Part shown: positions 29,242 through 47,294 of the stretch, piece by piece | How the letters are laid out: each line of letters opens with the position of its first letter | Numbering within the stretch: position 1 is the stretch's first letter | Virus record (IMG/VR): IMGVR_UViG_3300020411_000980 | Span: 1-64,000 of that record | Length of the DNA stretch: 64,000 bases | Reading direction: 5' to 3' (one strand) | Source of the DNA: a virus | Notes under the pieces: generated by a model | Database searches by the model: none | Seen by the model: the letters and a program-made list of their open reading frames with translations, nothing else | What the model was told of the DNA's origin: nothing | Translations under genes and position numbers: made by a program

Positions 29242-29433
29242 TTATGTCTCAACGTACTTAAGATATAATAAGTCAGTTATTTCCTCTACAGTATGCAGTA
29301 ACTCGTGTAGTTGTTTATCATTTATTCTATGTTCACTATGTGATTGATATGTCTTAGATATAAACATACCAAGTGACTTACGCAAGATGTCTTTGCTCTC
29401 GCTATTTAATATTTGAGATCTGATTCCTAACAT
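29242..29433 (-). CDS. Small helical hypothetical protein
   Basis: 63 residues from ATG 29431-29433, which forms a TGATG overlap with the stop of the oxygenase gene; a GTG one codon earlier is also possible. Helical and Leu/Lys-rich. Not recognised. Confidence 0.55.
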   Translation of the reverse strand: MLGIRSQILNSESKDILRKSLGMFISKTYQSHSEHRINDKQLHELLHTVEEITDLLYLKYVET

Positions 29434-30101
29434 CACAGTAAAGGGATAAGAGAGAATTGGTCGTCTGGTAAATCACCTCTTGTTTCAATGTCAAATCCTA
29501 GGGTAATTCTGTTACCTTCGTACTCTTCATTAACACATACTTTATGCATTCGTTCCCAACCTGGTCCGAAATAAATGTTACCAACTTCATTATTTATTTC
29601 ATATAAAGGTCCCCGCTGATCTCTAAATTTTGTTATGCTATTCTTTGGATCAATACTTACATATCCGTGGTAATCAAACTTATGATCGTGCCAGTTTAAT
29701 ACTTCATTTGGTTTGTGCATATTAACCCAACATTGCATCCATAATGGTTCATCAGTTCCTAACGTTGTTCTAACTACTGTCCTTATATCTTGTAGCAATA
29801 ACCAAAATAATGGTGATGGTGCAGTTAATGAGAATAGATTATAGAACCGATAACCAGAATAGTTAGTGTCCATATTATCCAACTGCTCCCTATCTAACTT
29901 TAAATCCTCTCTGTCAAATAGTTCTGGCAATGCACCTAGAGTCAACCCCTCTTGTCTTAATGAACTATCAAGACCAGTGAATGTCTCTTTAAATAATCTA
30001 TAACCACGTCCTAATTGACGTAGCATTTCCTCTTGCTCGTGTTCTACAACTGGTGATCTATACAGTACCCAGTCCTCACCCTCCTTAATTTTGTACGTCA
30101 T
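29433..30101 (-). CDS. 2OG-Fe(II) dioxygenase
   Basis: A 222-residue protein whose C-terminal half is a double-stranded beta helix. Candidate metal ligands are H138 and H140 (NWHDHKF) and H186 (ERMHKV), with R198 in NRITLGFD for 2OG. The HxH first site and PNEVLNWHDH layout resemble the TIGR02466 group. Residues 1-100 form an extra N-terminal domain of unknown role. It is the last gene, in transcription order, of the oxygenase/halogenase island and overlaps the next oxygenase by 17 bases. Confidence 0.78.
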   Translation of the reverse strand: MTYKIKEGEDWVLYRSPVVEHEQEEMLRQLGRGYRLFKETFTGLDSSLRQEGLTLGALPELFDREDLKLDREQLDNMDTNYSGYRFYNLFSLTAPSPLFWLLLQDIRTVVRTTLGTDEPLWMQCWVNMHKPNEVLNWHDHKFDYHGYVSIDPKNSITKFRDQRGPLYEINNEVGNIYFGPGWERMHKVCVNEEYEGNRITLGFDIETRGDLPDDQFSLIPLL

Positions 30102-30756
30102 TTGGATTGTATGCTAAACGTGGATCTTTCGGCATTGCATCTGCCAAATTGATGTTAACAACAGGTCGCCAAGTACCTACTGGTGTTGTTGATGAGTGAA
30201 ATAGATCACCCTTGAATGCCACTGCTCTACCCTTCTTAGGTGATACTCGTGTCATTTCTGTGAATTTGTCCTGTTTGACTAACTCAACATATTGTTGGGG
30301 ATCTTGTGTCCTCTCGTTATAGATGATAGTGTCACCATTTGAATTATCAATATAATATACCACGTTCCAAGAGTTTTGTACATAACTGTCAACGTGTGGT
30401 AACTGAATGATGTTAGAGCACCAAGCAGGTACGTGGTTAACTCTCATCCTAAGCAATGCTTCTGCCTTTAACTTATCTCTGAACTGTAATGCTAGAGGCA
30501 TAAATGCGTTGCATAATGTTGATAACTCACCTTGCTCACACTCAAATAGATAATGGAATGCACAATATCCATTGCGAGGATCACCTAAAAATAGATCACT
30601 AATTGCATTGTCCTTAATCATCCATTTGAGATCAGGGTTCTTAATACAATCTATTAACCAATTCTGATATACTGGTGGGATTATATCATCAAAGACAATA
30701 ACGTCTTTCATATTATTGAATTGTGTCTTAAATGGTGACTGTACTGTAAACTTCAT
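30085..30756 (-). CDS. 2OG-Fe(II) dioxygenase (P4H-like)
   Basis: A 223-residue protein. The triad is H121-x-D123 (LPHVDS) and H187 (LFHSSTTP), with R197 in WRPVVNINL. The YYIDNSNGDTIIYNE strand pair between them matches prolyl-4-hydroxylase-like enzymes. The start at 30756 lies 1 base after the preceding stop; Met 16 is an alternative. Substrate unknown. Confidence 0.82.
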   Translation of the reverse strand: MKFTVQSPFKTQFNNMKDVIVFDDIIPPVYQNWLIDCIKNPDLKWMIKDNAISDLFLGDPRNGYCAFHYLFECEQGELSTLCNAFMPLALQFRDKLKAEALLRMRVNHVPAWCSNIIQLPHVDSYVQNSWNVVYYIDNSNGDTIIYNERTQDPQQYVELVKQDKFTEMTRVSPKKGRAVAFKGDLFHSSTTPVGTWRPVVNINLADAMPKDPRLAYNPNDVQN

Positions 30757-30757
30757 A

Positions 30758-31435
30758 TTATGTGTAGTAAGGTGATGAGTTAATCATTGCTTGTTCTTCT
30801 TTAATGAAGTCTGCTGCTGACTCCCAAGGCATTGATAACATTGGTCGTCCATCATATTTGTTCTTAGCATATTTTCCATTTGCATCAACATAAGATACAA
30901 ATGCTTGTATCTGTAACTCACCTGTGTACTTGGGTCTCCAGTGGAAATCTTTATGTCCTCTGAATATACATATATCTCCTTGATTCATATAAACTTGATG
31001 TGATTTGCCATCCATTTCTAAGTACAAGGGCCAATCAACTTCATCCCTTGTTATACACACATTAGCAACCCATTCACCACTTGTTCTATCTCTATGTCTT
31101 ACTAAATTAGTTCCCTTAACATATACTCTAGCATAACTAAATGTTTGATGTAATTGTATATCTAACACCTGTTCAATCTGTGGTTGTATGTGTTGTCCCA
31201 TTGCTTCAAAACATACTGGTGAATACATTGCAAATGCACCTGGCATTATAGGATCAGATGTGGGTCCAGAATACTGTGTTTCAACCACATTCTTAATCAT
31301 CATATATTCTATCTTTAATTGTTCACAAGTCTCTATTGATAGACCATCACGAATGACATATAATTTGCCATCAGCAATAGTATCAACCTTCAAATCTTGC
31401 TTCATATGACTGGTAGTCATTAATTCCTCTCCCAA
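30758..31435 (-). CDS. 2OG-Fe(II) dioxygenase
   Basis: Up to 225 residues. The triad candidates are H114-x-D116 (VRHRDRTSGEW) and H161 or H165 (GHKDFHWR). The segment NVCITRDEVDWPLYLEMDG between them is the usual core strand region. Met 6 or Met 11 are alternative starts because the upstream gene ends at 31383. Substrate unknown. Confidence 0.8.
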   Translation of the reverse strand: MGEELMTTSHMKQDLKVDTIADGKLYVIRDGLSIETCEQLKIEYMMIKNVVETQYSGPTSDPIMPGAFAMYSPVCFEAMGQHIQPQIEQVLDIQLHQTFSYARVYVKGTNLVRHRDRTSGEWVANVCITRDEVDWPLYLEMDGKSHQVYMNQGDICIFRGHKDFHWRPKYTGELQIQAFVSYVDANGKYAKNKYDGRPMLSMPWESAADFIKEEQAMINSSPYYT

Positions 31436-32045
31436 AGAATACTAGAGTTAGTCTTGCATCATCAGATGTAGAACCATAGAAATTCTGTCCTCCGTGATAC
31501 TTTCTTCCATCAAATATTATAGCACGATTGTAACGTGCTTGTACCTTGATAGATTCAATAAAATATGAATTACACTCCTCCTTATACTTATCAAAGTTAG
31601 CAATCTCTTCAGTACCTTGTGCTTCCATTGCCTTATGAAACTCCTCTTCATATCCTTGCATTTCAGCACCAGCAGGTACATCATATATTGTTGTTCCACT
31701 ATCCTCAGTCATATCTGGATTAAGATAGATAACACCACCAATTCCTAAATGGTCGTCATCTGTGTGTATCCATCCACTACCACATTCACCTGTACTAATA
31801 TGAAATGCTGCGTCTGCTATCTCAAATGCACGATAACTTGGTAAGTATTTAATTATCTTTCTACATATAATCTCGTGAAAAACAGGATCTAAATCTTGTA
31901 TGAGTTTAGTTCTCTTACCTGGCCAATACCCTCTGTTTGGATGTTCAGTACAAGGATAATATTCAAGTGATTGTGCATACTTTCGCACTAAACTTGGTGT
32001 CTCAAAGAATCTATCAATAATAGTTGTTGGTACTATTTCTGCCAT
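31383..32045 (-). CDS. 2OG-Fe(II) dioxygenase
   Basis: A 220-residue protein with a clear triad: H94-x-D96 (GWIHTDDD), H184 (RKYHGGQNFYG) and R198 in RLTLVFF. GGVIYLNP follows the first metal site. A helical insert at about 125-165 separates the two metal-site halves, as in phytanoyl- or asparaginyl-type enzymes. It overlaps its neighbours at both ends. Confidence 0.83.
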   Translation of the reverse strand: MAEIVPTTIIDRFFETPSLVRKYAQSLEYYPCTEHPNRGYWPGKRTKLIQDLDPVFHEIICRKIIKYLPSYRAFEIADAAFHISTGECGSGWIHTDDDHLGIGGVIYLNPDMTEDSGTTIYDVPAGAEMQGYEEEFHKAMEAQGTEEIANFDKYKEECNSYFIESIKVQARYNRAIIFDGRKYHGGQNFYGSTSDDARLTLVFFGRGINDYQSYEARFEG

Positions 32046-32728
32046 AATCTAAAAGGACATTTAGTCGTGTTAAAAATAAGATTGTGTGTGATACGAGGGA
32101 ATAGATTCTTAGTATCTACTCTCTTTTGTGCATCACGTAATTGCTTACTTGTTGGTGTAGATTTAACCATATCATATTTTTGATTATGGTTATGTTCTTG
32201 ATAAAATGCTATACGATATATAGGATCTCCTCTTCTAATTATAATAGGTTTAGACTCATCTATAAAGTTAATAGCAAATCCAATAGGACGTGACCAATCA
32301 GATAAATTCCACCATCCTTCTACTATCTTAAAATTATTACTAGCACATTGTTTCTGTTCTACCCATACATTCTTAGCACTTGTCCACATTAAGAAGATAG
32401 GTATATGTATTTGAAACGTTTGATCTACTTCCCAATTTGGTGGTGGTTGTATTATTTGATGAAACAGATCACCTAAGTTAGACTCAAGATACTGCTCCTT
32501 TCTATTCATTCTTAATTCAATATGTTTAGGTGCCCGTATCACAAACTCCCGTTTGGTTTTATGCTGCCAAGCAGGACAAGAATGATATATTGTTTTGCTA
32601 GGATCAAATGTATCATAATATCTCTCAGGTTCAAACCCAACACCATCTAAGGTCAATGATGAGTCTAGTGCTCTATCAAGTGACCAGTCTGGTGATTCAT
32701 ATTGTAGATAGTTTATTTGAATGGGCAT
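32033..32728 (-). CDS. DUF6065-like protein A
   Basis: A 231-residue protein, paralogue of the next gene (32713-33402). Shared landmarks are a start of the form INYxQYE, SLTLDGVGFEP/SLSIDGVGIEP, a CPAxxHKTxRE segment, APKxIxL, WTxxKNxWVE, a W-W/F-NLSxWxRPI segment, and IIxRGDPxYxIxF. The RGDP/AGTP-type turn, with a preceding Trp-rich core, also links both to the C-terminal region of the protein at 35941-36744. No catalytic residues can be named. The DUF6065 label is my pattern-based suggestion. Confidence 0.6.
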   Translation of the reverse strand: MPIQINYLQYESPDWSLDRALDSSLTLDGVGFEPERYYDTFDPSKTIYHSCPAWQHKTKREFVIRAPKHIELRMNRKEQYLESNLGDLFHQIIQPPPNWEVDQTFQIHIPIFLMWTSAKNVWVEQKQCASNNFKIVEGWWNLSDWSRPIGFAINFIDESKPIIIRRGDPIYRIAFYQEHNHNQKYDMVKSTPTSKQLRDAQKRVDTKNLFPRITHNLIFNTTKCPFRLWQK

Positions 32729-33402
32729 TGTTTAAACATAAGAGTCTTTGCTAAATTGCTGATGAATCCTTTCACCCTCACTCTCTTATTCATTTGAATC
32801 AATAGATCTTTAGGTGGCATTGCCTTCACAAATTTAAACTCTTGATTGAGATTACTCTCTTCAATGAAATTTATTTTATATAATGGATCACCACGCTTAA
32901 TGATAACAGGTTTAGTATTGTCAACAATATTCAATCCAAATGATATAGGACGTGTCCAAGATGATAGATTGAACCATCCTTGAACTACTGTGAAATTATT
33001 ATTAAGTGAAGTGAGTGGATGATCTTTAACCTCTACCCATATATTTTTATTCTTTGTCCAACATATCAACATAGGCATACACACCTGTAATGTTGTTATT
33101 GGTGCTCTCTTATTTTGTACCTGTACTGTTCTGTTTAACTCTTGAGCATTTAACTGCTTACATATTATTTGAGAATTATCATTGTCAATCTCTAGTGTGA
33201 TATCTTTAGGTGCATATACTATCCACTCTCGTGATGTCTTATGAGTAAATGCAGGACAATCTAAGTATGGTGTCGTCTTAGGCATTGTATCCAAAGTTTT
33301 CCTTGGTTCAATACCAACACCATCTATTGATAGAGGTGAATCTAGTATGTCTGTGACATTCTCAGCACCTTCATATTGATAGTAGTTAATCAGAACAGAC
33401 AT
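32713..33402 (-). CDS. DUF6065-like protein B
   Basis: A 229-residue paralogue of the gene directly downstream, clearly similar over its whole length (see 32033-32728), so the two arose by tandem duplication and have since diverged. It overlaps its upstream oxygenase neighbour by 17 bases. Position inside the oxygenase/halogenase island suggests a partner or substrate-binding role; this is inference. Confidence 0.6.
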   Translation of the reverse strand: MSVLINYYQYEGAENVTDILDSPLSIDGVGIEPRKTLDTMPKTTPYLDCPAFTHKTSREWIVYAPKDITLEIDNDNSQIICKQLNAQELNRTVQVQNKRAPITTLQVCMPMLICWTKNKNIWVEVKDHPLTSLNNNFTVVQGWFNLSSWTRPISFGLNIVDNTKPVIIKRGDPLYKINFIEESNLNQEFKFVKAMPPKDLLIQMNKRVRVKGFISNLAKTLMFKQCPFK

Positions 33403-33904
33403 AGTTAAAATTAATCACAATTCTATTTGTAGCATAGGTGGGTGAACTCGATGCGTGCATCCTTAAACCATCAAAAATAATGAGTTTATTCTTCTCAGGT
33501 TTAACCTTATCTGTGATAGTACCATTTTCATCAAAGAATATGGTCTCACCATCAGAATCATTCACATAATATAGTGCTGTAGTGTGTGGTATATCAAAAT
33601 CCACGTGTGGTCTATTATAACCTGTCTTAGTACTTAAAAGCAACCCTCCCTTAATCCTGAGTAGTTTGTGATCCTTTGGTACAAAGTGTAAGAGCATAGG
33701 ATATACAAAATCTAAACACTCTGATTCTACTCCTTCCATCTCATCAAAGAATAGATGTGCAAATCCTGGTGTACCTCGTTTGTGTGGACCTTCATTAGCA
33801 TATGTTATATCATCTAAAAAATGCCAGTTGAATTTATATGAACTCATCATCTTATGAATTCTGTTTGCATATAATTCTGGAAGCAAATTGTTAATGACCT
33901 TCAT
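33386..33904 (-). CDS. 2OG-Fe(II) dioxygenase (P4H-like)
   Basis: A 172-residue catalytic core: H100-x-D102 (RPHVDFD), H150 (LRMHASSSP) and R161 (NRIVINFNY). It reads like the 171-residue enzyme at 17315-17830 (similar length and C-terminal VINxNY), so the two are probably related copies. Substrate unknown. Confidence 0.85.
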   Translation of the reverse strand: MKVINNLLPELYANRIHKMMSSYKFNWHFLDDITYANEGPHKRGTPGFAHLFFDEMEGVESECLDFVYPMLLHFVPKDHKLLRIKGGLLLSTKTGYNRPHVDFDIPHTTALYYVNDSDGETIFFDENGTITDKVKPEKNKLIIFDGLRMHASSSPTYATNRIVINFNYVCSD

Positions 33905-34505
33905 AATTGATTGATAATACTACACGATCTTCATCAGTATTATTTGGTTGTGTTGCGTGCTTCAACCAACCAGGAAATACTAATATGTCATTTGTGTGAA
34001 CTGGTATCTCTCTCCAGAGATTTTGTTCTGGTACCTGTGGAGAACCAAAGCGATGATACTCTAATGGATCTCTAATTAAAAAGTTCCCTGATCCTCGTGG
34101 TGCCTTGAGATAACAAGACAATACCATAGGACAGGGACTGTGTAAATGTTCTGTTGTTATTCCACCACGCTTGTGGATATTGATCCAAGACTCACGTGGT
34201 GTGATGTGACAATTAAAATAACCCCAGTGATCCCAAATTGGAATTAACTGTTTGTGAATAATATAGAAGAACTTTTGTAAACACTCCCAATTATGGGGTG
34301 CATAAGATTCTAGTGATGCTGACGCTGTACTAAATGCGTTGTTGCTCTCTAGTTCTGAATTAGTTCTAACTGTATCTAATAATGATCCTACATCATATTG
34401 TAGTGAACCACCGTGTTCATACTCAAAATCATAGTTGAGTCTCCAAACATAATTTGGAATATACTCAACTGGTTTAGGATCTTCTGGGGTTATTATTAAA
34501 CTCAT
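33891..34505 (-). CDS. 2OG-Fe(II) oxygenase (TIGR02466-like)
   Basis: A 204-residue protein with the TIGR02466 layout: ESWINIHKRGG, then H120-x-H122 (TEHLHSPCPM), VLSCYLKAPRGSG, H183 (PGWLKHATQPN) and R194 in DRVVLSINYEG. All metal-site residues are present, unlike the diverged relative at 20114-20770. It overlaps the oxygenase downstream by 14 bases. Confidence 0.83.
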   Translation of the reverse strand: MSLIITPEDPKPVEYIPNYVWRLNYDFEYEHGGSLQYDVGSLLDTVRTNSELESNNAFSTASASLESYAPHNWECLQKFFYIIHKQLIPIWDHWGYFNCHITPRESWINIHKRGGITTEHLHSPCPMVLSCYLKAPRGSGNFLIRDPLEYHRFGSPQVPEQNLWREIPVHTNDILVFPGWLKHATQPNNTDEDRVVLSINYEGH

Positions 34506-34644
34506 CCACTTTCTCCTTTAACTGCTTGATTCTTTTAGCAGATTCTTCTCTAACCTTTCTGGATAGACGTTTAAGGGTTGGTGGATGAGTTTCATAATTT
34601 ATCCAATTAGACCAGAAATTTGTGTCATTACTCTTCTTTGACAT
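34474..34644 (-). CDS. Small basic helical protein
   Basis: 56 residues from ATG 34642-34644 (MSKKSNDTNFWSNWINYE). Lys/Arg-rich helix (RKVREESAKRIKQLKEKVDEF). The start lies inside the end of the heme oxygenase gene, so it is translated with it. Not recognised. Confidence 0.6.
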   Translation of the reverse strand: MSKKSNDTNFWSNWINYETHPPTLKRLSRKVREESAKRIKQLKEKVDEFNNNPRRS

Positions 34645-35206
34645 TAGCGTAAGGTAGCATCTCCTTGAATGTACTTGTAGCAAACTTGTAAGCAACTCTT
34701 ACTTCGTCTGCCATTGAATCGTCTAGTTTAGCACGAATGAGACCCTTTAGTTTCTCTGGGTTAGCGAACTCATACATTGCTGAAGAACCTGGTACTTTCT
34801 TAGCAAGCATTTGTCCACCCATCAGATCACCCATATGTCTGGTATAGACGTGTGCCATCAATCTTTTTTGTCTACTCTCTGAACTAGGATCTTTCTCGAT
34901 CTGTTCAATGTACTTAGTAAACTCTTTAGTTGTTTCTAAAGTTGGTGGGATCTCACCTTCATTACCATAGTCACCCCATAGTTCTTGAAAGTCTTTAACT
35001 AAACCAGGATATCTATTGATATCTTCTAGTCCATTTAATACTTCATTCCTTGATGCTGCATCTTCTAACACATCATACTGTTGGATCTGATTGTATAAGA
35101 ATATAGCATATGATTTTGGATGTAATTTACCTCCAAACATCATACCAACAAAGGGTTGTTCCTCTGCTCTTTTGTGGTGTTCCCACGTTGCTTCTTTAAG
35201 TGACAT
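34628..35206 (-). CDS. ho1: Heme oxygenase (biliverdin-forming)
   Basis: A 192-residue protein of the HO-1 family. The N-terminus LKEATWEHHKRAEE holds the heme-ligand His (H11), and the distal helix is seen in MGDLMGGQMLAKK. It opens heme to biliverdin IX-alpha, CO and iron, the first step of bilin pigment synthesis, and needs ferredoxin from the host. It is slightly shorter than most HO-1 proteins (about 235) at the C-terminus. Cyanophages carry ho1 to feed phycobilin synthesis or to free iron. The iron-release option is notable here because six Fe(II) enzymes lie downstream. Confidence 0.92.
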   Translation of the reverse strand: MSLKEATWEHHKRAEEQPFVGMMFGGKLHPKSYAIFLYNQIQQYDVLEDAASRNEVLNGLEDINRYPGLVKDFQELWGDYGNEGEIPPTLETTKEFTKYIEQIEKDPSSESRQKRLMAHVYTRHMGDLMGGQMLAKKVPGSSAMYEFANPEKLKGLIRAKLDDSMADEVRVAYKFATSTFKEMLPYANVKEE

Positions 35207-35208
35207 AA

Positions 35209-35472
35209 TTAATCTTTAAGGTCAGGTAATTTCTTTTCTACCCAGTGCTCCGTGTTATCTATACCAGCAGCAGTGACATATCTCATAATATGCTCATCAA
35301 TCTGATGATAGACTGGGTGTAGATCTAAATCCATATTAATATCGTGTGCTATCTGTGATATCTGATCTGCTGAGAAGCAATGATCAGGATGTAATAGATC
35401 ACAACAAGGGATACGCTTCTCAATTAATTCATTGAGGTTGATACGTATCTCATAATCTCTGTAGACTGGCAT
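35209..35472 (-). CDS. Small conserved hypothetical protein
   Basis: An 87-residue protein with several Cys/His (PCCDLLHPDHCFSADQ near residue 22-37) that might bind metal, and an acidic C-terminus. Not recognised. It is 2 bases upstream of the heme oxygenase gene. Confidence 0.65.
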   Translation of the reverse strand: MPVYRDYEIRINLNELIEKRIPCCDLLHPDHCFSADQISQIAHDINMDLDLHPVYHQIDEHIMRYVTAAGIDNTEHWVEKKLPDLKD

Positions 35473-35474
35473 AA

Positions 35475-35639
35475 TTAATAACTTGGTTCTAAGTCTGAGT
35501 GTTCAGGTTCATTGACCTCGGAAAATGTTATGTCATCCCAATAGGAATGATATAACCTACCCCATATAACTTTAAATTCGTCATCATCAAGGTCTTTGAA
35601 TAGACAGCGATCTTTAAGATATATGTGGTATGTTGACAT
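35475..35639 (-). CDS. Small conserved cyanophage protein
   Basis: A 54-residue ORF, ATG 35637-35639, TAA 35475-35477, starting MSTYHIYLKDRCLFKDLDDD. The start and the VIWGRLYHSY core are typical of a small protein common in T4-like cyanophages. Function unknown. Confidence 0.7.
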   Translation of the reverse strand: MSTYHIYLKDRCLFKDLDDDEFKVIWGRLYHSYWDDITFSEVNEPEHSDLEPSY

Positions 35640-35944
35640 TAGTCCTCCGTGCGTTGTCCTATGGTTTCTATATTATCATCCTCCTCGGTAGCGAGTTCGA
35701 ATGATGGCATATTAACTTCTCCGTCGTCTCCCATTATATCACGCTTTACCATAAACAGTGCATCGATAGCACCTTCAAGTCTTGATCTCTGACTATATGC
35801 TTCAGATCTCTTCTGAAAATCAACAGTAGTCACACCATAAGGATTTAGTTTCTTGTTACTAAATTCCTCATCTAGTTCTTCTATCAATTTAGTTTGTTCT
35901 TCCTTTTGTAAGTGGAAGTTTTGTATCAGTTCATCAATAGTCAT
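35639..35944 (-). CDS. Coiled-coil hypothetical protein
   Basis: A 101-residue acidic protein with a long N-terminal heptad helix (HLQKEEQTKLIEELDEEF) and an acidic tail. Not recognised. 1-4 base overlaps with both neighbours. Confidence 0.65.
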   Translation of the reverse strand: MTIDELIQNFHLQKEEQTKLIEELDEEFSNKKLNPYGVTTVDFQKRSEAYSQRSRLEGAIDALFMVKRDIMGDDGEVNMPSFELATEEDDNIETIGQRTED

Positions 35945-36744
35945 CTTTTAATTCCGTCAGAGTGATAGTTAATTGCTCTCATTGCTCTTGCTATTTTTCT
36001 AGTAACAGTATCTTCAGTTGAATACTCTGCTGCTAGTGAATAGTTGAATGAGTTTTCTAAGTCCCAGTCCTTTTGTTCAGCAGGTTCTTGAACAAAATCA
36101 TACCAATCCTTTTCTATATGCTCACGTAGAACAGGTACAAACTGTGCTAGTGGTGTCCCTGCTTTAACAAGGACTCCTTCTTCTCCTGTGTCAAGGACTT
36201 TCCAGAAGAGTTGGACGTTGACTTGCATAGCGAATCTTGGATCATACATTCCAGCAACTGCTTCGAATCTAGTTTCATTGTTGTAATACACTGGGAGTTG
36301 CAAAAATACAATGTCATCACTAGCTCGTACCCTCCAAGGTGTTTCAAGTTTTATTACGTGAGCAAGAGTGTCCTTTGGGAACCCTGACTCTTTATCTTCC
36401 AATAAAGGAACTGTTTGATCAGGTGGATGATCTCCAATAAAATTGGAGTGTCTCATAAAATTGGTTACCTGTTCATATCTATAAGAGATACCATCACCTT
36501 GAGTGAATATCCTGAAATCCATAGGTGAGGTTACCACCCAACCCATACGTGTGATCTGTTTCAGACCAGGACAGTTGGCAACATTTTGTGTGCCCATAAA
36601 TGGGCATCTTCTACCCTTATGATCTTTATCCTTCCATTGTCTTTTAATGGATGATGCAGGTATCAGTGGATAGTTCTCTGCTAGACCAGGTTCAAGTGAG
36701 AAGAATCTAATCCAAGGTTTCTTCTTACGGAAGATATTCCACAT
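35941..36744 (-). CDS. DUF6065-like protein C (halogenase-linked)
   Basis: A 267-residue protein from ATG 36742-36744 (MWNIFRKKKPWIRFFSLEPG). This start overlaps the halogenase stop by 20 bases; longer in-frame starts reach 100 bases into that gene. The FFSLEPGLAENYPLIPAS opening, the CPFMGTQNVANCPGLK Cys-containing segment and the VKAGTPLAQFVPVLREH region match the DUF6065 pattern as I know it. Proteins A and B share the C-terminal turn. Adjacent to halogenase 1, so it may act with it, for instance as a binding or delivery partner. Confidence 0.65.
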   Translation of the reverse strand: MWNIFRKKKPWIRFFSLEPGLAENYPLIPASSIKRQWKDKDHKGRRCPFMGTQNVANCPGLKQITRMGWVVTSPMDFRIFTQGDGISYRYEQVTNFMRHSNFIGDHPPDQTVPLLEDKESGFPKDTLAHVIKLETPWRVRASDDIVFLQLPVYYNNETRFEAVAGMYDPRFAMQVNVQLFWKVLDTGEEGVLVKAGTPLAQFVPVLREHIEKDWYDFVQEPAEQKDWDLENSFNYSLAAEYSTEDTVTRKIARAMRAINYHSDGIKR

Positions 36745-38407
36745 TGTCTTCCCCATAAATGTTTTCAAGTAAGTAATCATAATGAGTAGGACAATCATCC
36801 GACTCAACGAACTTCTTAACGTTAGCAATATATTCTTCTCTTGTCACCTTACTGACTCCTATTGCGTGCTCGTTCTCTTCACTACCCATTAGATATCTTG
36901 TACCTAATTGTAATCCGTGACCTGCAGCAATATAGTTCATACCGTGCATATTAGCATTCAATGGTTCAGCGTGATCTAATATAGATCCCATCCTTTCAAA
37001 GTTATCATTAACCTTGATATTACCACTGTGCATAGTTTCAATATCCATATAATCATTACGTTGTGTACACCACTTCCAGTATGGATTGTCAGTTCTCATT
37101 GATAATGCATAGTGCATAGCAACAAACTTAGCAAATCCAATTACTTCACGTTGTGCACAATAATTATACCATTGTCTCTCTATATTTGTGACGTATCCCT
37201 TTCTTCTATTGAGTATGTCAACCAGTCTAAGGATACTCTCGTGTGTAGTTAATAGTCCTGTTGATTCTAATGGTTCTACAAATCCATATGATAGACCAAT
37301 AGCAAGACAATTAAGTTCCCACGCTTTCTGCCTATAACCGTGCTTTATATCAATAGAGGATACCTCATACTCATCAGGTTGTAGACCAAACTTAAGTTCA
37401 ATCCAGTTTCGGAACTCTTGCTCTGTCTCGTGTTCCATTGCAAAACGTGATGACCAAGCATAACCAACACCAATACGATCCCATAATGGAATAGTCCACA
37501 TCCAACCATTCTCTGCTGCTGTGCAGTCAGTCACATTATGCATCATTTCCTTACGTTGTTCTATATCAAGATAAGGTAAACGTGCAAAGAATGCTTTATC
37601 ATTTGCAAGTATATCTTTGAATGATTCGAATGATACATTCATCAATCCTTCAATGAGTGCACCTTTAAATCCAGTACAGTCAATGAATAGATCTCCTGTT
37701 ACTCCTACTTGCTTTTTATCTGCGTCTAGTCTTACACCCAACTGATTAATCTGTCTGTTAGATGCAGCAGGAGATCCACCACGTTTAACATCCTTAATCA
37801 TTCCACGTACTTCACCAAGTACGTGTGTAAACCTGTTCTTCTCTGCCCAAGGATAACATACTCTATCTCTTAGGAACTCACCAAACTTCTCAGCATCTAA
37901 ATGATATGCTGTATCTGTCTTGAAGTTATAGTTATCCCAGTCCATATATCCTTCTGGAGTCTGAGCACTATTCCACTGTTTATTATTTGCTACAAGTGTA
38001 TCATTCTCAGGATTATAATACTGAGAGAATGACTTGTTGTCTGGATTATATTCTTCTGGATGTCTCTTCTGTAAGTCAAACCAATCTTCAATACCATTAG
38101 CAGTGTTATCTAACTTATACTTACCAAATGGATATTGAAAGGTCGTCCCTTTCTCTCTAAAATCTGTGAACTGAATACTATTCTTATAGGTTGCATTACA
38201 ATACTCCATCCAGTCTTTATCTTCAAGACCAAGAGCATCAAGATACTTATTGAAATGACCTAAAGTAGATTCACCAACCCCAATAGGTTTATGCTTTGTA
38301 CTCTCCACGAGTACAACATTAACCCAAGGGCATAGTTTCAACAAGGCAGCACAGGTCATCCAACCAGATGATCCACCACCCACAATTACAACGTTATTGA
38401 CCTGCAT
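36725..38407 (-). CDS. Flavin-dependent tryptophan-halogenase-like protein 1
   Basis: A 560-residue protein of the PrnA/RebH family. Residues 10-18 form the FAD-binding GGGSSGWMT. The halogenase Lys is K75 (ATYKNSIQF), the WxWxIP motif is at 302-307, FIDCTGF at 241-247, and the FVEPLEST motif holds the second catalytic acid (E381). All needed residues are present, so it should be active, taking reduced FAD from a separate reductase, which is not in this window. It would chlorinate or brominate an aromatic substrate (free or bound Trp, or another indole). The next gene upstream is a second halogenase. Confidence 0.9.
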   Translation of the reverse strand: MQVNNVVIVGGGSSGWMTCAALLKLCPWVNVVLVESTKHKPIGVGESTLGHFNKYLDALGLEDKDWMEYCNATYKNSIQFTDFREKGTTFQYPFGKYKLDNTANGIEDWFDLQKRHPEEYNPDNKSFSQYYNPENDTLVANNKQWNSAQTPEGYMDWDNYNFKTDTAYHLDAEKFGEFLRDRVCYPWAEKNRFTHVLGEVRGMIKDVKRGGSPAASNRQINQLGVRLDADKKQVGVTGDLFIDCTGFKGALIEGLMNVSFESFKDILANDKAFFARLPYLDIEQRKEMMHNVTDCTAAENGWMWTIPLWDRIGVGYAWSSRFAMEHETEQEFRNWIELKFGLQPDEYEVSSIDIKHGYRQKAWELNCLAIGLSYGFVEPLESTGLLTTHESILRLVDILNRRKGYVTNIERQWYNYCAQREVIGFAKFVAMHYALSMRTDNPYWKWCTQRNDYMDIETMHSGNIKVNDNFERMGSILDHAEPLNANMHGMNYIAAGHGLQLGTRYLMGSEENEHAIGVSKVTREEYIANVKKFVESDDCPTHYDYLLENIYGEDNVEYLP

Positions 38408-38410
38408 AAT

Positions 38411-39910
38411 CTAATTGATACCGTCAGTATTATATAGGACATCATTATAATAGTCAATCGGTCTTGGCATAAAAGCAGCGATCTCCTTTCCTTCAGTGAT
38501 TCTCTTCTCTACAGCAGCATCTAAGATAGGTAGGAAGTCACCACCAAACTCTCGATCATAATGTGCTTCCATATCCATAACTTCCTTCCTACCAATAATA
38601 GTATAACCTAGACCTGCCATCACAAACTGCATACCAATAAACAAATCATTTAATGTTGTTGGTACATCACGACAGTCAATATTATTTAATGTGTGGAATG
38701 GTACTGAAGTTGCAGCATCCCAATATGGTGTGTCGTCTTTGTATGCTGCTGTGAAATGATGTACGACAAAATCTCTGAATGTCATAAACTTGACGTGACA
38801 CGCTGCATTGAACCAGTCACGTTGTAATCCTGATATAGTATTTCTCTTAGGATCAGCAAACTGTATGAAATTAAATAAGAACTCGTGTACTGAGAACAGA
38901 CCACCTGATTCTAATGGTTCAATGAAACCAGCAGATAGTCCGATTGCTATTGTATTACCCACCCATATCTTTTCTCTCATACCTGTTGGCCAACGTAGGT
39001 ATCTAAAATCTTCATCAGGTGCATCAGGGCAACCTAAATGTGCCTTAAACTCCTTTAGTGCAAAGGCTTTATCCTGAAACTTTGAACTGAAATTATAACC
39101 TGTCCCAATACGAGACCAAGTTGGTACAGTCCAGACCCAACCACTTGACAGTGCAGTGACACGTGTGTAGCTCGTAAGTTCCCGTTCTTTATCAACATAC
39201 TCCCGTCTTGTGCACCACGTACTGTCATTGAGTAACACGTCTCTCCAGTCGTCCCAGGGCACTCCCAGGCGGTTCATCAAAATTGCTCTGAATCCTGTGC
39301 AGTCTATGAATAGGTCAGCAGTTACCTCTCTACCATCATCAAGAGTTAGTTTTGTTATATTATCTCCCTCCGTGTCAATCGTATCTACTGTCTCTCTAAT
39401 ATAATTTAAACCACGTGGGATACAAAATCTATCCTTTAGATACTTAGCAAACTTAGTAGCATCAATATGATAACCAACTAACGTGTCTATGTGTGGTGTA
39501 TATAATTTTCCCTGTTCAGATACTACAGCAGCATTAGAGAATACATTCTGAAATGTTGTATTAGATGGTTGTCTATGGTACTTCCAAATATAATAGTCTA
39601 AGGGTGGAATATTAGTATCATAAGAACCAAAAGGGTACTGCCACGGTTGGTCAGTACCCCAATTTTCAAATCGAATGCTGTTCTTATATGTTGCGTCACA
39701 CGCTGGCATCCACTCTTTATCTTCGAGTTCCAGATACCTAATGAATGTATTAAAATGCTGTGTTGTAGATTCCCCTACCCCTATAGTTCCGACTAGAGGA
39801 GACTCTATCAACGTAATATTTTTAGTGCCCTCAAAATGTTTAAGTAGCACTGATGCTGTCATCCACCCTGCACTGCCACCTCCGACAATACAGATGTTAT
39901 TAAATTTCAT
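38411..39910 (-). CDS. Flavin-dependent tryptophan-halogenase-like protein 2
   Basis: A 499-residue paralogue of halogenase 1, with GGGSAGWMT (10-18), K76 in ATYKNSIRF, WVWTVP (258-263), FIDCTGF (201-207) and FIEPLESG (E334). It is 61 residues shorter than halogenase 1. Both copies retain the catalytic residues, so they probably act on different positions or substrates rather than being redundant. The stop and the next start are separated by 3 bases. Confidence 0.9.
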   Translation of the reverse strand: MKFNNICIVGGGSAGWMTASVLLKHFEGTKNITLIESPLVGTIGVGESTTQHFNTFIRYLELEDKEWMPACDATYKNSIRFENWGTDQPWQYPFGSYDTNIPPLDYYIWKYHRQPSNTTFQNVFSNAAVVSEQGKLYTPHIDTLVGYHIDATKFAKYLKDRFCIPRGLNYIRETVDTIDTEGDNITKLTLDDGREVTADLFIDCTGFRAILMNRLGVPWDDWRDVLLNDSTWCTRREYVDKERELTSYTRVTALSSGWVWTVPTWSRIGTGYNFSSKFQDKAFALKEFKAHLGCPDAPDEDFRYLRWPTGMREKIWVGNTIAIGLSAGFIEPLESGGLFSVHEFLFNFIQFADPKRNTISGLQRDWFNAACHVKFMTFRDFVVHHFTAAYKDDTPYWDAATSVPFHTLNNIDCRDVPTTLNDLFIGMQFVMAGLGYTIIGRKEVMDMEAHYDREFGGDFLPILDAAVEKRITEGKEIAAFMPRPIDYYNDVLYNTDGIN

Positions 39911-39916
39911 AATGAG

Positions 39917-40441
39917 TTAGGTAGGTGGTTCTACGTATGCTCCACCCCAATTTGAATAGCGTTCCCAACAAGGATTCTCTTGTGTTGAGATCTTACAAGG
40001 TCTATCAACAGACGGTTCAACAGCATCTGACATAAACTCAGAGATTTCCTCTTCTGTCATAGCTGGATCCATTGGTTCCTCTACGTCAGATGGTCTTTGA
40101 GTATTCTCTTTAACTGTCTTAACGTGATTATACCACAAAGCATCAGCCGCTGCTAGATCTTTACCTGCTGCGATGTCTTTGTATAGCATATCTAATTGCT
40201 GACCAATTTCACCATATGCAACTCTACGAGTTGTAGCAGGATCAGCGTATGTATCTACACGCTTAACCCATATCATATCATTGGCAGATGGTGACCATTC
40301 TAGTGTCCAAGTGTTTGTTATGTCATCAGGTGCATTGACCCACATCTGAGAACAACCACGACCTAAGAATAGTGTGTATTCTTCACCAGGATCTACTACG
40401 TCTGCCACGTATCCATTGAAATCCATTAATGCTTTCTTCAT
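39917..40441 (-). CDS. Tail-fibre assembly/structural-like protein
   Basis: A 174-residue protein. The stretch RRVAYGEIGQQLDMLYKDIAAG with the following AADALWYNHVKTVKEN is a recognisable helical motif near the end of many phage fibre-related proteins. The N-terminal half has beta character (EYTLFLGRGC, WTLEWSP). It follows the glycine-rich adhesin gene and is followed by halogenase 2, so it may be the boundary of the virion block. Chaperone versus structural role cannot be told. Confidence 0.6.
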   Translation of the reverse strand: MKKALMDFNGYVADVVDPGEEYTLFLGRGCSQMWVNAPDDITNTWTLEWSPSANDMIWVKRVDTYADPATTRRVAYGEIGQQLDMLYKDIAAGKDLAAADALWYNHVKTVKENTQRPSDVEEPMDPAMTEEEISEFMSDAVEPSVDRPCKISTQENPCWERYSNWGGAYVEPPT

Positions 40442-40450
40442 TGGTGACCC

Positions 40451-41251
40451 CTATTTGTAGTTAATAACAGTAATAACACCATACTTACCGTTTGAACCAC
40501 GGAAAGAACCAAAGTGTCCACCAGATCCACCACTACCATAAGCAGAGTGATCTTGGTGATTATGTGAGAAGTTACCTCCATTTGGCCAACCAGCAGCAAC
40601 TGATCCTCCAAAGTGAGATGGTCCTCCAGTTCCACCACCGTGAGCAGCGTGGGACTGTCCACCACCACCCCAGATGTTCAAGTCTCCACCAGAACCATTA
40701 CGTCCTAGTCCACCTGAGTGAGAGTTGTTACGTGCAGCACCGTGTCCACCACCAGCAGATAGATATGGTCCAAAGGATGATGATCCTCCGTCTCCACCAC
40801 GGTTGAAGTACCAAGTACCTCCACCTCCTCCACCAACTGAAATACCAACTGAGGAAATGTTGGCAACAGACATTACTCGTTCTGAATATCCACCAGCACC
40901 ACCAGACTCACCGTGTCCAGCACCTCCTCCTCCACCGCCATTACAGCGTACGTGGATGTATTTAACACCTGATGGACGGTTCCAAGTTCCCCCTCCTGTC
41001 CATACTTGCATATTATAAATGTTTTCGGAACTTACTGATGTCCAAGACATAGAAGAACCATTGTTAGTTAGAAACTTTCCAGACTGTCCAGAGACACTAG
41101 GTACGATCTGACCAGACGAACCTGACATAGTTCCGTTCACGGTCAAATTACTGCAGGTTAAAGTTCCGTTCGCAGTAATATTACCAGACGCTAGGGTAAA
41201 TCCACCGATGCCTGACAGGTCTCTAATAGATGCAACTTTAAGTGTACTCAT
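40451..41251 (-). CDS. Glycine-rich tail-fibre adhesin 1
   Basis: A 266-residue protein. The N-terminal 60 residues are beta-repeat fibre sequence (GNITANGTLTCSNLTVNGT), followed by a WTGGGTWNRPSGVKYIHVRC segment, and the rest is poly-Gly with Ser, Asn and His (GGGGGGAGHGESGGAGG). Such Gly-rich domains form polyglycine-II sandwiches in phage adhesins (e.g. gp38 of S16), where they touch the receptor. An exact TATAAATA late promoter is at 41278-41285. Confidence 0.75.
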   Translation of the reverse strand: MSTLKVASIRDLSGIGGFTLASGNITANGTLTCSNLTVNGTMSGSSGQIVPSVSGQSGKFLTNNGSSMSWTSVSSENIYNMQVWTGGGTWNRPSGVKYIHVRCNGGGGGGAGHGESGGAGGYSERVMSVANISSVGISVGGGGGGTWYFNRGGDGGSSSFGPYLSAGGGHGAARNNSHSGGLGRNGSGGDLNIWGGGGQSHAAHGGGTGGPSHFGGSVAAGWPNGGNFSHNHQDHSAYGSGGSGGHFGSFRGSNGKYGVITVINYK

Positions 41252-41277: not shown

Positions 41278-41285
41278 TATTTATA
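41278..41285 (-). promoter_or_regulatory. T4-type late promoter TATAAATA
   Basis: An exact TATAAATA on the minus strand 27-34 bases upstream of glycine-rich adhesin 1. Confidence 0.7.
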
Positions 41286-41288
41286 TGT

Positions 41289-41852
41289 TTATGGAGTTGG
41301 TGGAGTTGGTCTAACCTCACCTGGTTCCAGGTATGGTTGATCTCTCTCCCACTGCTCATCATCAGGGTAATAACCTGGATGATAGTGTACTTTATTGGCA
41401 GGATAATCTCTTCTAGAAGACTCATCCTCCCAAGATTTTACTTGAAATGTCTCTTTAAACTTTAAAGTGACACCATCTTCCTTAACATAAGCCTGTACTA
41501 TGTAGTCAGTATCAGGATCAAGTCTAGGGAATGATAAATTCTCGAACCAAGGACAATCTGTACAGATGATTTGATCATACTTCATCTCATACAATGGTGT
41601 TTCATTTCCTTTGCTGATACACACATACATCTCTAGGTCTTTGAAGTGAAGTTTATATTCTCCATTCTTTCTGACACTCAACTTAACGTTAGGGTCATAA
41701 GATTTTAGTGTCTGAAATCCTGAAGATTCTACAGTCTTCTTAGCAACATCAAATACTACTGTTGCTTCATTATACTCAACTGCCTGAACTTCTTCATCAG
41801 CTGGTCTTGGATCATTAGGATCCACTATTCTTGGGTTAGTTACTCTGTCCAT
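41289..41852 (-). CDS. Hypothetical virion-region protein
   Basis: A 187-residue acidic protein with a Pro-rich C-terminus (YLEPGEVRPTPPTP). It has a central beta-rich part with CPW/CTD Cys (IICTDCPWFENLSF). Not recognised. It lies between two glycine-rich fibre genes, so it is probably a fibre-linked component. Confidence 0.6.
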   Translation of the reverse strand: MDRVTNPRIVDPNDPRPADEEVQAVEYNEATVVFDVAKKTVESSGFQTLKSYDPNVKLSVRKNGEYKLHFKDLEMYVCISKGNETPLYEMKYDQIICTDCPWFENLSFPRLDPDTDYIVQAYVKEDGVTLKFKETFQVKSWEDESSRRDYPANKVHYHPGYYPDDEQWERDQPYLEPGEVRPTPPTP

Positions 41853-41854
41853 AA

Positions 41855-42829
41855 TTACAATTCATAACATACGGTAATGTTTCCTGTTCCACCATTATAT
41901 TGTCCTGCACCGTTTCTTGCCCAATGTCCCCAGTTTCCACCGTTTCCATAGTTACCAGACCAGGTTTGGGTTTCGTCAGCATAGTTAGAACCTGACCAAT
42001 TGTTTCCTCCACCTCCTCCTGCTGCTCCATTACAGTCACAGCCTGGGTTTCCTCCACAATTACCTGCGTTCCAACCGCCTCCACCACCGCCTCCTCCAGA
42101 GGCATCGTTACCTGGTCTTCCACACTCATCTCCATTAGTATCTCCATTAGCACCGTGATTTCCACCCTGTGCACCACACTGTCCGTTTTCTCCTCTCTGG
42201 TTACCTGCTCCTCCTCGACCAGCACCACTACATCCTTCACGTCCACCGCCCCCGCCACCACCTGCTGCAACCAACAGGATATTGCCCTGAGACAAGTTAA
42301 CACCCCAAGGTGAGAAGAACATACTTGCTGCTCCACCACCTCCACCTCCAGCAGAGCATCCTCTACAAGAAGCGTGAGTACCACGACCACCAGATCCATA
42401 ACCAGATCCGTTATTACCATTACCACCGCCACCCCAACATCCGAAGCAACCTCCTCCGTTAGAGCCACCACCTCCGACATATGCTCGGAAACGAGCTGCA
42501 TCTACCCATCCATCTTGTAAGATGAGTCGTGCATAGGCAGCACCACCTGATCCACCGTGTGCACCACCTTGTCCACCATTTCCACCAGCAGCACCCCAAG
42601 CCCAAACCCAAATATAGTTACCTTTACCTGTTCTTATATAAAGACTATTATCTCCACTACCCTGAAACCTGTGACATCTTAGTTGTCTACCATCCTGTGA
42701 TGTATTAAATACTGATCCATTATCGTCAGCAGTCACCTTCTCCAATCCACCACCACCTCCAGGTCCTCTGGATGATAGTGAATGACTAAAGTTATTTAAT
42801 AACCCTGAATAACCAATTTGTGTTGACAT
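41855..42829 (-). CDS. Glycine-rich tail-fibre adhesin 2
   Basis: A 324-residue protein. After about 95 residues with ordinary composition (RLILQDGWVDAARFRAYVG), almost everything is Gly/Asn/Cys (GGGGNGNNGSGYGSGGRG, GGGGGGGGREGCSGAGRGG). The many Cys residues suggest cross-links between loops. The Gly pattern resembles adhesin 1, so the two are likely alternative or paired receptor-binding tips. Confidence 0.75.
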   Translation of the reverse strand: MSTQIGYSGLLNNFSHSLSSRGPGGGGGLEKVTADDNGSVFNTSQDGRQLRCHRFQGSGDNSLYIRTGKGNYIWVWAWGAAGGNGGQGGAHGGSGGAAYARLILQDGWVDAARFRAYVGGGGSNGGGCFGCWGGGGNGNNGSGYGSGGRGTHASCRGCSAGGGGGGAASMFFSPWGVNLSQGNILLVAAGGGGGGGREGCSGAGRGGAGNQRGENGQCGAQGGNHGANGDTNGDECGRPGNDASGGGGGGGGWNAGNCGGNPGCDCNGAAGGGGGNNWSGSNYADETQTWSGNYGNGGNWGHWARNGAGQYNGGTGNITVCYEL

Positions 42830-42831
42830 AA

Positions 42832-43686
42832 TTATGCGTAATTAGATCCAGACCCAAATACAGTGAATGCGTGTTGAGAAGTATTAGGTGTATGTACCAG
42901 AGCAAATGATACAACTATCCACTTCTCATCGTGTGATGGTGCGTTACCACCTATCCATTGTATGTTAGTACTCTGTCCATTGATGTTTATGGATGAGGGA
43001 ATTCCTGACCCTCCTGTTTCATATATAGCAACCGTAATACCATATCCGTGTGCACCATCAGTAGGAACATTGTTTAAAGATAATGTCCAGTTACCTCCAC
43101 CGTTCTTATTTACCCAAATAGAGTTACCATTATTATAGTCGTGAGTTATACTTCCACTTGTTGTATAGAAGTAGATACGCTCTGAAGTTTCTTCAAAGTG
43201 TAACCTACCAGTTGAAGTAATATGTTGTGATTCAATATCAACAAAGTGAGCATATGACAGGTCGTCGTCTCCAAGTAATGTCCAAGATGCGTTGTTTTCA
43301 ATAGTAACTGTCCATCCTGAAGCAATTTCTACAGGACCAGCAGTAAAACCGTTTGTAAATTCTACACCACCGTTCGCTATAGGACCAATGGTTATATTTT
43401 CTTGTATTGTTGTACCGTTCGTTCTAATTATACTTCCTTCACCAAGAGCAGGACCACCTCCACCAACGTCTGTCCAACCTGGGTTACCTTGGTTAGCATC
43501 TTGTTTGTATATCTGTGCCATATCTTCGGTGCTGTTATACACCAAAGTACCAAAAGCAGGAGTACCTAAAGCAGTAACTTGTGCTTGGTTCAGATTTGGT
43601 AAATTAAGTTGTTCGGTAATGCTCCACGCTTCAACTAAACCTCTAGTTGTTGCTTGAATATTATTACCATTAATCTGGGTAGACAT
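42832..43686 (-). CDS. Tail-fibre-like protein
   Basis: A 284-residue protein starting MSTQINGNNIQATTRGL, with a LGTPAFGTLVYNSTEDMAQI segment and IEIASGWTVTI-like beta strands. These are typical of T4-like cyanophage fibre tails and collar fibres. A CTAAATAG box (43715-43722) lies upstream. It starts the fibre/adhesin gene group. Confidence 0.7.
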   Translation of the reverse strand: MSTQINGNNIQATTRGLVEAWSITEQLNLPNLNQAQVTALGTPAFGTLVYNSTEDMAQIYKQDANQGNPGWTDVGGGGPALGEGSIIRTNGTTIQENITIGPIANGGVEFTNGFTAGPVEIASGWTVTIENNASWTLLGDDDLSYAHFVDIESQHITSTGRLHFEETSERIYFYTTSGSITHDYNNGNSIWVNKNGGGNWTLSLNNVPTDGAHGYGITVAIYETGGSGIPSSININGQSTNIQWIGGNAPSHDEKWIVVSFALVHTPNTSQHAFTVFGSGSNYA

Positions 43687-43714: not shown

Positions 43715-43722
43715 CTATTTAG
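43715..43722 (-). promoter_or_regulatory. Late promoter-like box (CTAAATAG)
   Basis: The minus strand reads CTAAATAG 29-36 bases upstream of the 284-residue fibre gene, overlapping the end of the 1191-residue gene. Confidence 0.45.
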
Positions 43723-46700: not shown

Positions 46701-47294
46701 AGCAATAGTATCTACAACGTCAGGACGGTAGTAAACTCCATTGTTGTCACCATCAAAAAATGACTGTTGCCAGAAATAGCAACCACCAGTTAACCTAAAG
46801 ATGGCAGTAGGATCAGGTTCATTACTTGAGGTAATACCTAGTGATGCTTGTAAAGTTGGATATGGTACGTACTTCGGAATGATCTTAGTTCTTCTAAGGT
46901 CAGATCCTACAACAGAACAACCTCTGGGAACAATAATTCCACCACGAGTTGAATTGAATTTGTATAGGATATTGTTAGGAGAAGTAAGATCAAAGTTAGT
47001 ATTTTCATCAAACGGTGTGATCTCAGAATATAAGTTTGTGCCTGGTCTGTTATCTAGAACATATTCAGAGGGATATAGGTAAATACTAAATGCGTCAAAT
47101 TCGTCATTACTTAGACCAACACGATAAGAGAATCTAGCCACTTCAAGAAATGCCCTTTGCAACGTCTTGAATGGTCTTAATGCCGAGTTACCTCGGTTAT
47201 CATATGCATCTGATGCGTCAAAGTCGTCGGGGTTGACGTATATAATACGTCCAGTCCTCGACGTGATAATATTCTTTAGACGGGTTAGTGCCAT
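43719..47294 (-). CDS. Large virion structural (fibre-like) protein
   Basis: A 1191-residue protein. The N-terminus (LKNIITSRTGRIIYVNPDDFD, then NSALRPFKTLQRAFLEVARFSY) closely resembles a family of large virion proteins common in T4-like cyanophages. Residues 360-480 look like a beta-helix (WGINGMHADG, ITNSNSNFGNTSL). The C-terminal 100 residues (VTGTYGCQDKYTL) read like a fibre tail. It is likely part of the proximal tail fibre or baseplate. A TTATTTAG-type box lies 21-28 bases upstream. Confidence 0.75.
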   Translation of the reverse strand: MALTRLKNIITSRTGRIIYVNPDDFDASDAYDNRGNSALRPFKTLQRAFLEVARFSYRVGLSNDEFDAFSIYLYPSEYVLDNRPGTNLYSEITPFDENTNFDLTSPNNILYKFNSTRGGIIVPRGCSVVGSDLRRTKIIPKYVPYPTLQASLGITSSNEPDPTAIFRLTGGCYFWQQSFFDGDNNGVYYRPDVVDTIAPNFSHHKITCFEYANNDDLELYYQKISKAYATIPDTSGTIAQDQLQARVEENRIVGPISDEFRVSQIIRNGQTATAFTVDIQDNPINHGFSVGVAVNLSGVTGPTETDSNLYNGSFLVTSAQGNQFTYQMSAEPSGNAIGSNVLVKVEIDTVDSASPYVFNCSLRSVWGINGMHADGAEATGFKSMVVAQFTGISLQKDDRAFVLYNPSTGNYEAQASGSGAHINGLCKYRKGWRHRHIYASNDAFIQVVSVFAVGFGDHFFSDSGGDLSITNSNSNFGNTSLRSKGFKAASFTKDKAGQLTHIIPPKAISDIPEISINWVTFDIAKIRAAADPTKLYLYGYTNEDARPPSKIQGYTVGARKDGPTTPDQINVLLIASGAQQPTTHTAKIDPSGPDVTGSLPGSDESPIKYDTNQSNWYLQVDSTNNDIYTTLIANSQYQNLGFTPTSFIRRIPDARDLKDRIYRFRYVLDKDAFPIPREPITGFVLQPRSSETNSPSYDKTYYIYEVETFQTFERGVADGIYYLSILNASVSPATSNFDDFAFSQYAVDIYPTFDRDNPVADPAPAVSVADNDILGKVTTTDGAQPQPNEDTKLSISKETAQFFLLEQENNLGYNTTSNTLNAVVVTARLGDEEERKIPLKLNADNSVAPLLIELRRYSILRASGHTFEYLGFGPGNYSTAFPSTQVEVLSPTQVRLSQSLKEAAGVAYYSGVNSDGELYVGNQVINPITGQITNEDIAQLNVVGEEGTTIQTFSEVVLTDKLTVIGGASNQLESVFSGPVTFQKRITAQENIQTIKLTYANDDGTVLKQSFLAEDDGTGLPDIDSTLAFNDGDIIYNIDWQAGDSLGWIYETGIWYKFGLTDTTPITARRFSGVTNYGIGMAPDASNRMKIAGNTYINGNLDVTGTYGCQDKYTLATGIANNNNGVVYNGNGSTTGFAISPGHTSYSVMVFNNGVCQIPGVDYQVSGNAVDFSISTPPATGSVIHIREMVI

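Follow-up and report, generated by a model that had tools for sequence, protein, structure and literature searches.

The halogenase VirX1 of cyanophage Syn10 (PDB 6qgm) is a characterised broad-scope iodinase with a large open active site, and in vitro it accepts small aromatics (PMC8407142). It has been studied as an isolated biocatalyst, and its natural substrate and operon are not addressed in the reviews consulted. In the literature, cyanophage flavin-dependent halogenases (FDHs) are read as PrnA-like antibiotic enzymes or as part of host metabolism, and 2-oxoglutarate (2OG) oxygenases as enzymes that regulate 2OG, repair DNA or reprogram the host (PMC3037559, PMC9964418, PMC9602691, PMC10452541); for the region of Syn9 that carries both, the published readings are antibiotic protection (PMC3037559) and DNA repair. 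Among described fibre systems, the glycine-rich (Gly-rich) tip of the cyanophage Pam3 fibre is proposed to bind the receptor, and the fibre protein gp24 requires gp25, a trimeric 162-residue chaperone that covers the tip until maturation (PMC9608196). Here we describe a cassette of FDH, DUF6065-like and 2OG oxygenase genes that lies behind fibre genes in the virus record IMGVR_UViG_3300020411_000980. The window, i.e. the whole stretch analysed, comprises bases 1–64000 of this 102,352-base record of a T4-like cyanophage, which carries a psbA/psbD-type photosystem gene at 81834–82727. The cassette occupies 29433–39910 on the minus strand, and the other window genes whose coordinates are given below lie on this strand too.

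An earlier note on this DNA described six 2OG oxygenases, three DUF6065-like proteins, two halogenases and a heme oxygenase in this interval, and supposed that no such combined phage system was known. All of the genes are present, and they form one near gap-free operon with inter-gene gaps of −53 to +6 nucleotides and two exceptions, each holding a small open reading frame (ORF), of ~54 codons at 35473–35637 and of ~56 codons at about 34474–34644; the cassette has no other larger gaps. The supposed novelty did not hold, as the same operon is deposited in Syn9 and Syn10 and VirX1 is biochemically characterised (PMC8407142), although no paper treating the cassette as a unit was found. The true unit exceeds 29433–39910, since gp40 (39917–40441) and the upstream Gly-rich fibre genes belong to it too. 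In transcription order, the fibre side consists of a large tail fibre gene, a gp35-like gene, a Gly-rich fibre gene, u17, a second Gly-rich fibre gene and gp40. These are followed by FDH1, FDH2, the DUF6065-like gene Dc, the small genes s11 and s10, the heme oxygenase gene, two 2OG genes and two further DUF6065-like genes, and at the downstream end by a DUF6445-type 2OG gene, a probable 2OG gene and two more 2OG genes.

In a comparison run as a refutation test of a joint pathway, the unit was found to recur in cultured phages and in IMG/VR, and it is not rare. Syn9, Syn10 and members of about seven further cultured cyanophage lineages have the cassette in similar order, with gp40, FDH, VirX1, gp43, gp44 and 2OG genes directly behind the tail fibre genes in Syn9 and Syn10. 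The gp40–gp54 region of Syn9 (genome of Weigele et al. 2007) has the operon order of the window (gp40, two FDHs, gp43 corresponding to Dc, gp44, then 2OG genes). It differs in having a JmjC_2 gene, gp49, and in having neither the heme oxygenase nor the two shorter DUF6065-like copies at this position. Variants of the cassette are found in S-CREM1, S-RIM44, P-TIM40, Sf-FR1, S-WAM1 and P-RSM6, and in S-RIM44 and Sf-FR1 the unit is flanked by the fibre genes on one side and by the neck gene gp13 on the other. The recurring order in IMG/VR is tail fibre, Gly-rich fibre, gp40, FDH, DUF6065-like gene and 2OG battery. When 68 IMG/VR contigs were retrieved with only the tail fibre as anchor, gp40 was reached in 42, and in every one of these an FDH came next. 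In IMG/VR loci anchored on Dc, an FDH is the preceding labelled gene in 80 of 80 (74 within a strict distance limit) and a 2OG gene follows within 2.5 kb in 79 of 80, and where FDH-anchored loci have enough upstream DNA, a Gly-rich fibre gene is found within 5 kb in 47 of 60 and gp40 in 46 of 60. A scan of 50,697 phage records placed the Gly-rich fibre family in 20 of them (~nine lineages) and gp40 in the same 20, and every one is an FDH carrier; the p values for this 20/20 association, about 3e-21 with records and 3e-9 with lineages as the unit, assume ~54 FDH records among ~475 Kyanoviridae-like records, both approximate, and are only indicative because the records are not independent. Gene order is kept across about 150 diverged contigs, so chance is ruled out; the unit is real and conserved, and it is probably functional. 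We are very nearly certain of the module and of its linkage to the fibre.

Cyanophages have an established late promoter of T4 type, NATAAATA (PMC2984593). Its ATAAATA core, which has a background density of 0.018 per 100 nucleotides, is found mostly 24–37 nucleotides upstream of tail fibre (53%), last Gly-rich fibre (39%) and gp40 (44%) genes, and before the first FDH in 28 of 103 cases. The core is absent before the cassette genes O8, O4, O2, O3 and O1, and it is seldom found before Dc (2/111) or O7 (6/81, most of these off-position). That late promoters precede the fibre, gp40 and first FDH genes, and almost never the DUF6065-like and 2OG genes, is a new observation. On this motif evidence, the simplest view of the cassette enzymes is that they are encoded at the end of a late structural transcript. 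The window itself holds 11 ATAAATA sites, ten of them on the minus (gene) strand, and three sites, at 41278, 50590 and 55087, stand ~27–35 nucleotides before structural-region genes. The site at 41278–41284 (minus strand), of the kind enriched in relatives, is 27 nucleotides upstream of the start of the Gly-rich fibre gene at 40451–41251.

The product of this last gene, homologous to Syn9 gp38, is the proposed substrate of the cassette. It contains 27% Gly, and its AlphaFold2 model (predicted local distance difference test score, pLDDT, 87.4) has as best Foldseek match the cyanophage Pam3 fibre 7ypx (E 2e-8, probability 1.00), followed by the Bxb1 tail tip; PF21722 is matched below threshold. 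The Gly-rich protein before gp40 is thereby predicted to have the fold of the Pam3 receptor-binding fibre, which had not been recognised before. Conserved in the Gly-rich proteins are the aromatic residues W90, Y148 and Y163 and several His. The gp40 protein, encoded between the Gly-rich fibre and FDH1, has 174 residues (135–231 in relatives) and matches Pam3 gp25 in position and size, and by this analogy it is a probable fibre chaperone; there is no PDB match by sequence or profile and no consistent Pfam match. Pam3 gp24 and gp25 thus resemble the window in that a Gly-rich fibre of matching fold is followed by a chaperone-size gene, but the Pam3 paper (PMC9608196) describes no modifying enzymes.

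Further upstream, the large tail fibre protein that anchors the locus (43719–47294, Syn9 gp34 homologue) is 50–82% identical to cyanophage tail fibres and is annotated as a tail fiber protein in Syn9. The Syn9 gp35 homologue (42832–43686), a fibre-region protein, belongs to phrog_29506 with a weak tail fibre match, and the next gene (41855–42829), homologous to Syn9 gp36, encodes by composition a Gly-rich (33% G), Cys-containing fibre protein. This protein has many Cys pairs plus Trp, and may also be a substrate. Comparison of relatives places the small accessory gene u17 (41289–41852) in a subset of them. In a locus of P-TIM40 type (L237:2076-3665), the 40451-type fibre has an extra C-terminal domain of ~260 residues with no Pfam match.

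Both FDHs are complete, as the earlier note had it. FDH1 (38411–39910, Syn9 gp41 type) and FDH2 (36725–38407, Syn9 gp42 and Syn10 CPUG_00131) match PF04820 over ~400 positions each (E 8e-101 and 5e-86, respectively), and the FAD motif GGG..GWM, the lysine of TYK (K75) and the glutamates of EPLE(S) (E378/E381) are invariant in 12 phage FDHs. Residues 2–553 of FDH2 align to residues 3–529 of VirX1 (E 3e-138), i.e. near full-length homology; FDH2 is 43.5% identical to CPUG_00131 over 96% of the query, and the translated N-terminus of CPUG_00131 is that of the VirX1 chain. On these sequence comparisons FDH2 is assigned as the VirX1 orthologue, and VirX1 has the same neighbours on both sides. PrnA and RebH belong to the same superfamily as both FDHs and have the FAD and catalytic motifs in common with them. 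Local alignments to free-Trp halogenases mostly stop at residues 445–454 of 560 in FDH2 and 397–438 of 499 in FDH1, and the free-Trp-binding C-terminal region of PrnA and RebH presumably lies beyond these ends; among the structures matched, only VirX1 aligns nearly full length to FDH2. The PDB matches of FDH2 include 5uao, which we take to be the structure of MibH, and the flavoprotein QhpG is a weak match. MibH and QhpG, FDH-fold enzymes with peptide substrates, are precedents for such a fold acting on more than small molecules.

The placement of Dc (35941–36750, Syn9 gp43) and of the second (32713–33402) and third (32033–32728) copies in one DUF6065-like family appears right at the level of remote homology, because relatives match PF19541 and hhalign ties the third copy to Dc (90%, E 1.6e-6). 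None of the window copies matches PF19541 at E≤10; 7 of 52 Dc relatives do (best 7e-7), and a true DUF6065 protein matches the Dc profile at 1e-8. The second and third copies are assigned to phrog_17480, and the second also matches phrog_7084 (E 4e-5). Two Dc relatives match the dUTPase family PF00692 (best 8e-6), and in a Foldseek search with the AlphaFold2 model of Dc (pLDDT 90.1) the top 50 PDB matches are all dUTPases (top probability 1.00). The DUF6065-like family is accordingly modelled here, for the first time, with a dUTPase fold, and by eye the conserved residues include G167/D170 and AGTPL, which resemble dUTPase motifs III and IV. A bacterial origin of Dc was considered and rejected, the sole matches on bacterial contigs being a Prochlorococcus single-cell fragment and a ‘Nonlabens’ contig. 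The latter (NZ_RMVE01000006.1, ‘Nonlabens xiamenensis’, 188235 bases) holds a cyanophage locus like that of P-TIM40, with FDH and Dc sequences that are apparently the same, and seems to be phage DNA filed by mistake under a bacterium. Bacterial DUF6065, at one Bacteroidota-group locus, adjoins NADH-quinone oxidoreductase genes and not an FDH, and so gives no functional hint. Contigs L139, L154, L162, L163 and L165 carry DUF6065-like genes in tandem arrays of two to four, along with as many as four FDHs. The small conserved cassette protein s11 (35639–35944, Syn9 gp44) nearly always follows Dc in relatives, and s10 (35209–35472) is, by the same comparison, a small lineage-specific gene.

Of the six 2OG oxygenases proposed earlier, five are upheld by family or profile evidence and the sixth by its motif only. 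The family alignments show an essentially invariant H120-x-H122...H183...R194 in the H-x-H type enzyme at 33891–34505 (PF13759, E 1.6e-13), H100/D102...H150...R161 at 33386–33904 (PF13640, E 9e-7), H121/D123...H187...R197 at 30085–30756 (PF13640-like; hhalign to 33386–33904, E 1e-83) and H138-x-H140...H186...R198 in a second H-x-H type enzyme at 29433–30101 (PF13759-like; phrog_81, E 7e-9). In the DUF6445 protein at 31383–32045 (PF20043, E 1.4e-12), H94/D96...H184 is kept in about 90% of relatives. The protein at 30758–31435 (phrog_2954) has an invariant H114/D116...H165, and is called only a probable 2OG-type enzyme because this triad stands without profile support, no significant match having been found in Pfam, in PDB profiles or by hhalign to the other 2OG profiles. 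PHROG and GenBank label the 2OG families at 29433–33904 and their relatives ‘DNA endonuclease V’, ‘minor coat protein’ or ‘ferrochelatase’ (the last carried by phrog_2954), and these labels look like misannotations. Related cassettes add a JmjC_2 gene, as in Syn9 gp49, and the JmjC_2 family takes in ribosomal-protein hydroxylases.

The heme oxygenase (34628–35206) is also present as described (PF01126, E 2e-19, with a GDL.GGQ signature), but the view that it is integral to the pathway is not supported, since among the cassettes compared only those of phages close to this one include it. On this distribution we newly identify it as a lineage-specific insertion. Its suggested role as iron supplier to the cassette is demoted, and ordinary bilin synthesis is the simpler reading, because of the restriction to close relatives and because the same genome carries a bilin reductase gene at 78158–78733; most other relatives of this heme oxygenase are paired with a bilin reductase. 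The nearest cultured relative is the heme oxygenase of the pelagiphage Mosig (39% identity). In Mosig, a SAR11 phage (L242, 2128–9234), a Gly_rich_2 fibre, a 136-residue protein, a 2OG battery and the heme oxygenase stand before the neck genes, as in the window, but the operon has no FDH and no DUF6065-like gene, and the bilin reductase lies beside the heme oxygenase.

The idea of one pathway acting on a shared substrate therefore survives as to a co-inherited unit, for which context favours a virion protein, and is given up as to the heme oxygenase. We infer, with somewhat better than even confidence, that the Gly-rich receptor-binding fibre is the substrate of a late-expressed protein-modification cassette, a reading favoured by where the genes lie, by their co-inheritance with one fibre type, by the late promoters and by the openness of the VirX1 active site (PMC8407142). 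The cassette would be transcribed with the fibre gene and with gp40, its probable chaperone, behind which it lies. VirX1-type halogenases, using reduced flavin and halide of the host, would halogenate exposed Trp, Tyr or His side chains, and the 2OG oxygenases would hydroxylate other residues of the new fibre, either held by the chaperone or already assembled. The DUF6065-like protein, whose dUTPase-type fold usually forms trimers, may be an accessory or binding subunit, and the modification may adjust how stable the fibre tip is or which hosts it recognises. More tentatively, and at slightly less than even confidence, halogenases, several 2OG hydroxylases and the dUTPase-fold partner would modify the Gly-rich tip jointly, so that the adhesin would carry both halogens and hydroxyl groups. 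Which residues are modified, what benefit follows, and the parts played by gp40 as chaperone and by Dc are all things that we infer.

Several points weigh against fibre modification. No modified residue has yet been observed in any virion; Trp enrichment, sought in the Gly-rich proteins as evidence of Trp targets, is absent (1.23 vs 1.83 per 100 residues), and gp40 has no sequence similarity to Pam3 gp25. Of 13 FDH contigs without a nearby Gly-rich fibre gene, 12 have none anywhere on the contig and one has a weak partial match. FDHs also occur outside fibre loci, beside psbD/psbA in S-MbCM6 and beside sbcC in S-B64, and the FDH of Campylobacter phage CP21 is near portal and sheath genes. In favour of the fibre reading, by contrast, the cassette still stands beside other tail fibre genes in L154, L162, L163 and Sf-CH11, which lack the Gly-rich fibre; L165 also lacks this fibre. 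Late co-transcription could also serve a host-surface or a metabolic target. On the former, the enzymes would act late on envelope glycans, lipopolysaccharide or outer-membrane proteins, e.g. so that fewer progeny are lost on debris or superinfection is blocked, and adjacency to the fibre would reflect co-evolution with receptor choice. This would account for the same fibre linkage and late promoters, and for the co-variation with fibre type in which all records with this fibre and gp40 carry an FDH. We nevertheless consider it distinctly unlikely, as the enzymes look cytoplasmic, with no secretion signal noticed by eye, 2OG and reduced flavin come from the cytoplasm, and it is a probable chaperone gene that stands between fibre and FDH.

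Auxiliary metabolism, in which the FDH makes a halogenated small molecule (antibiotic-like or a halogenated indole) and the 2OG enzymes drain 2OG, repair DNA or reprogram host metabolism, is the sense of the published readings (PMC3037559, PMC9964418, PMC9602691), and agrees with the small aromatics taken by VirX1 in vitro and with the location of some FDHs in psbA/psbD regions. Partner genes of pyrrolnitrin type are, however, not seen in the cassette, six to nine distinct 2OG enzymes in fixed order are needless for draining 2OG, and the late promoters and the tie to one fibre type also count against this explanation, which we regard as unlikely. T4-like cyanophages have gene-insertion hotspots (PMC2984593), and the locus might instead owe its content to position only, as a hotspot behind fibre genes loaded with diverse oxygenases that share no substrate. 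The number of enzymes, which is 3 to 9 in most relatives and none in six contigs, and the clear case of insertion given by the heme oxygenase are in keeping with this. One gene order kept among proteins diverged to 35–45% identity is unlike a hotspot, and the exact co-occurrence of fibre, gp40 and FDH is not expected of one, making this very unlikely.

The gene families and the deposited genomes were already known, and the module itself is unrecognised until now. In the literature searched, no viral system that modifies its receptor-binding fibre in this way is described, and no relevant paper was found on phage fibre hydroxylation or on TonB-receptor/SapC/FDH clusters. The halogenases and numerous 2OG oxygenases of cyanophages have been unexplained since 2007, and a role in fibre modification would explain why they are carried. 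It would also bear on VirX1, a valued iodinating biocatalyst with no natural substrate identified in the reviews consulted, and DUF6065, a family of unknown function, would gain a fold. If the reading is true, the cassette would stand for viral protein chemistry of a new kind, supply enzymes able to halogenate folded proteins, and possibly add a new layer of host-range control in abundant viruses of the ocean.

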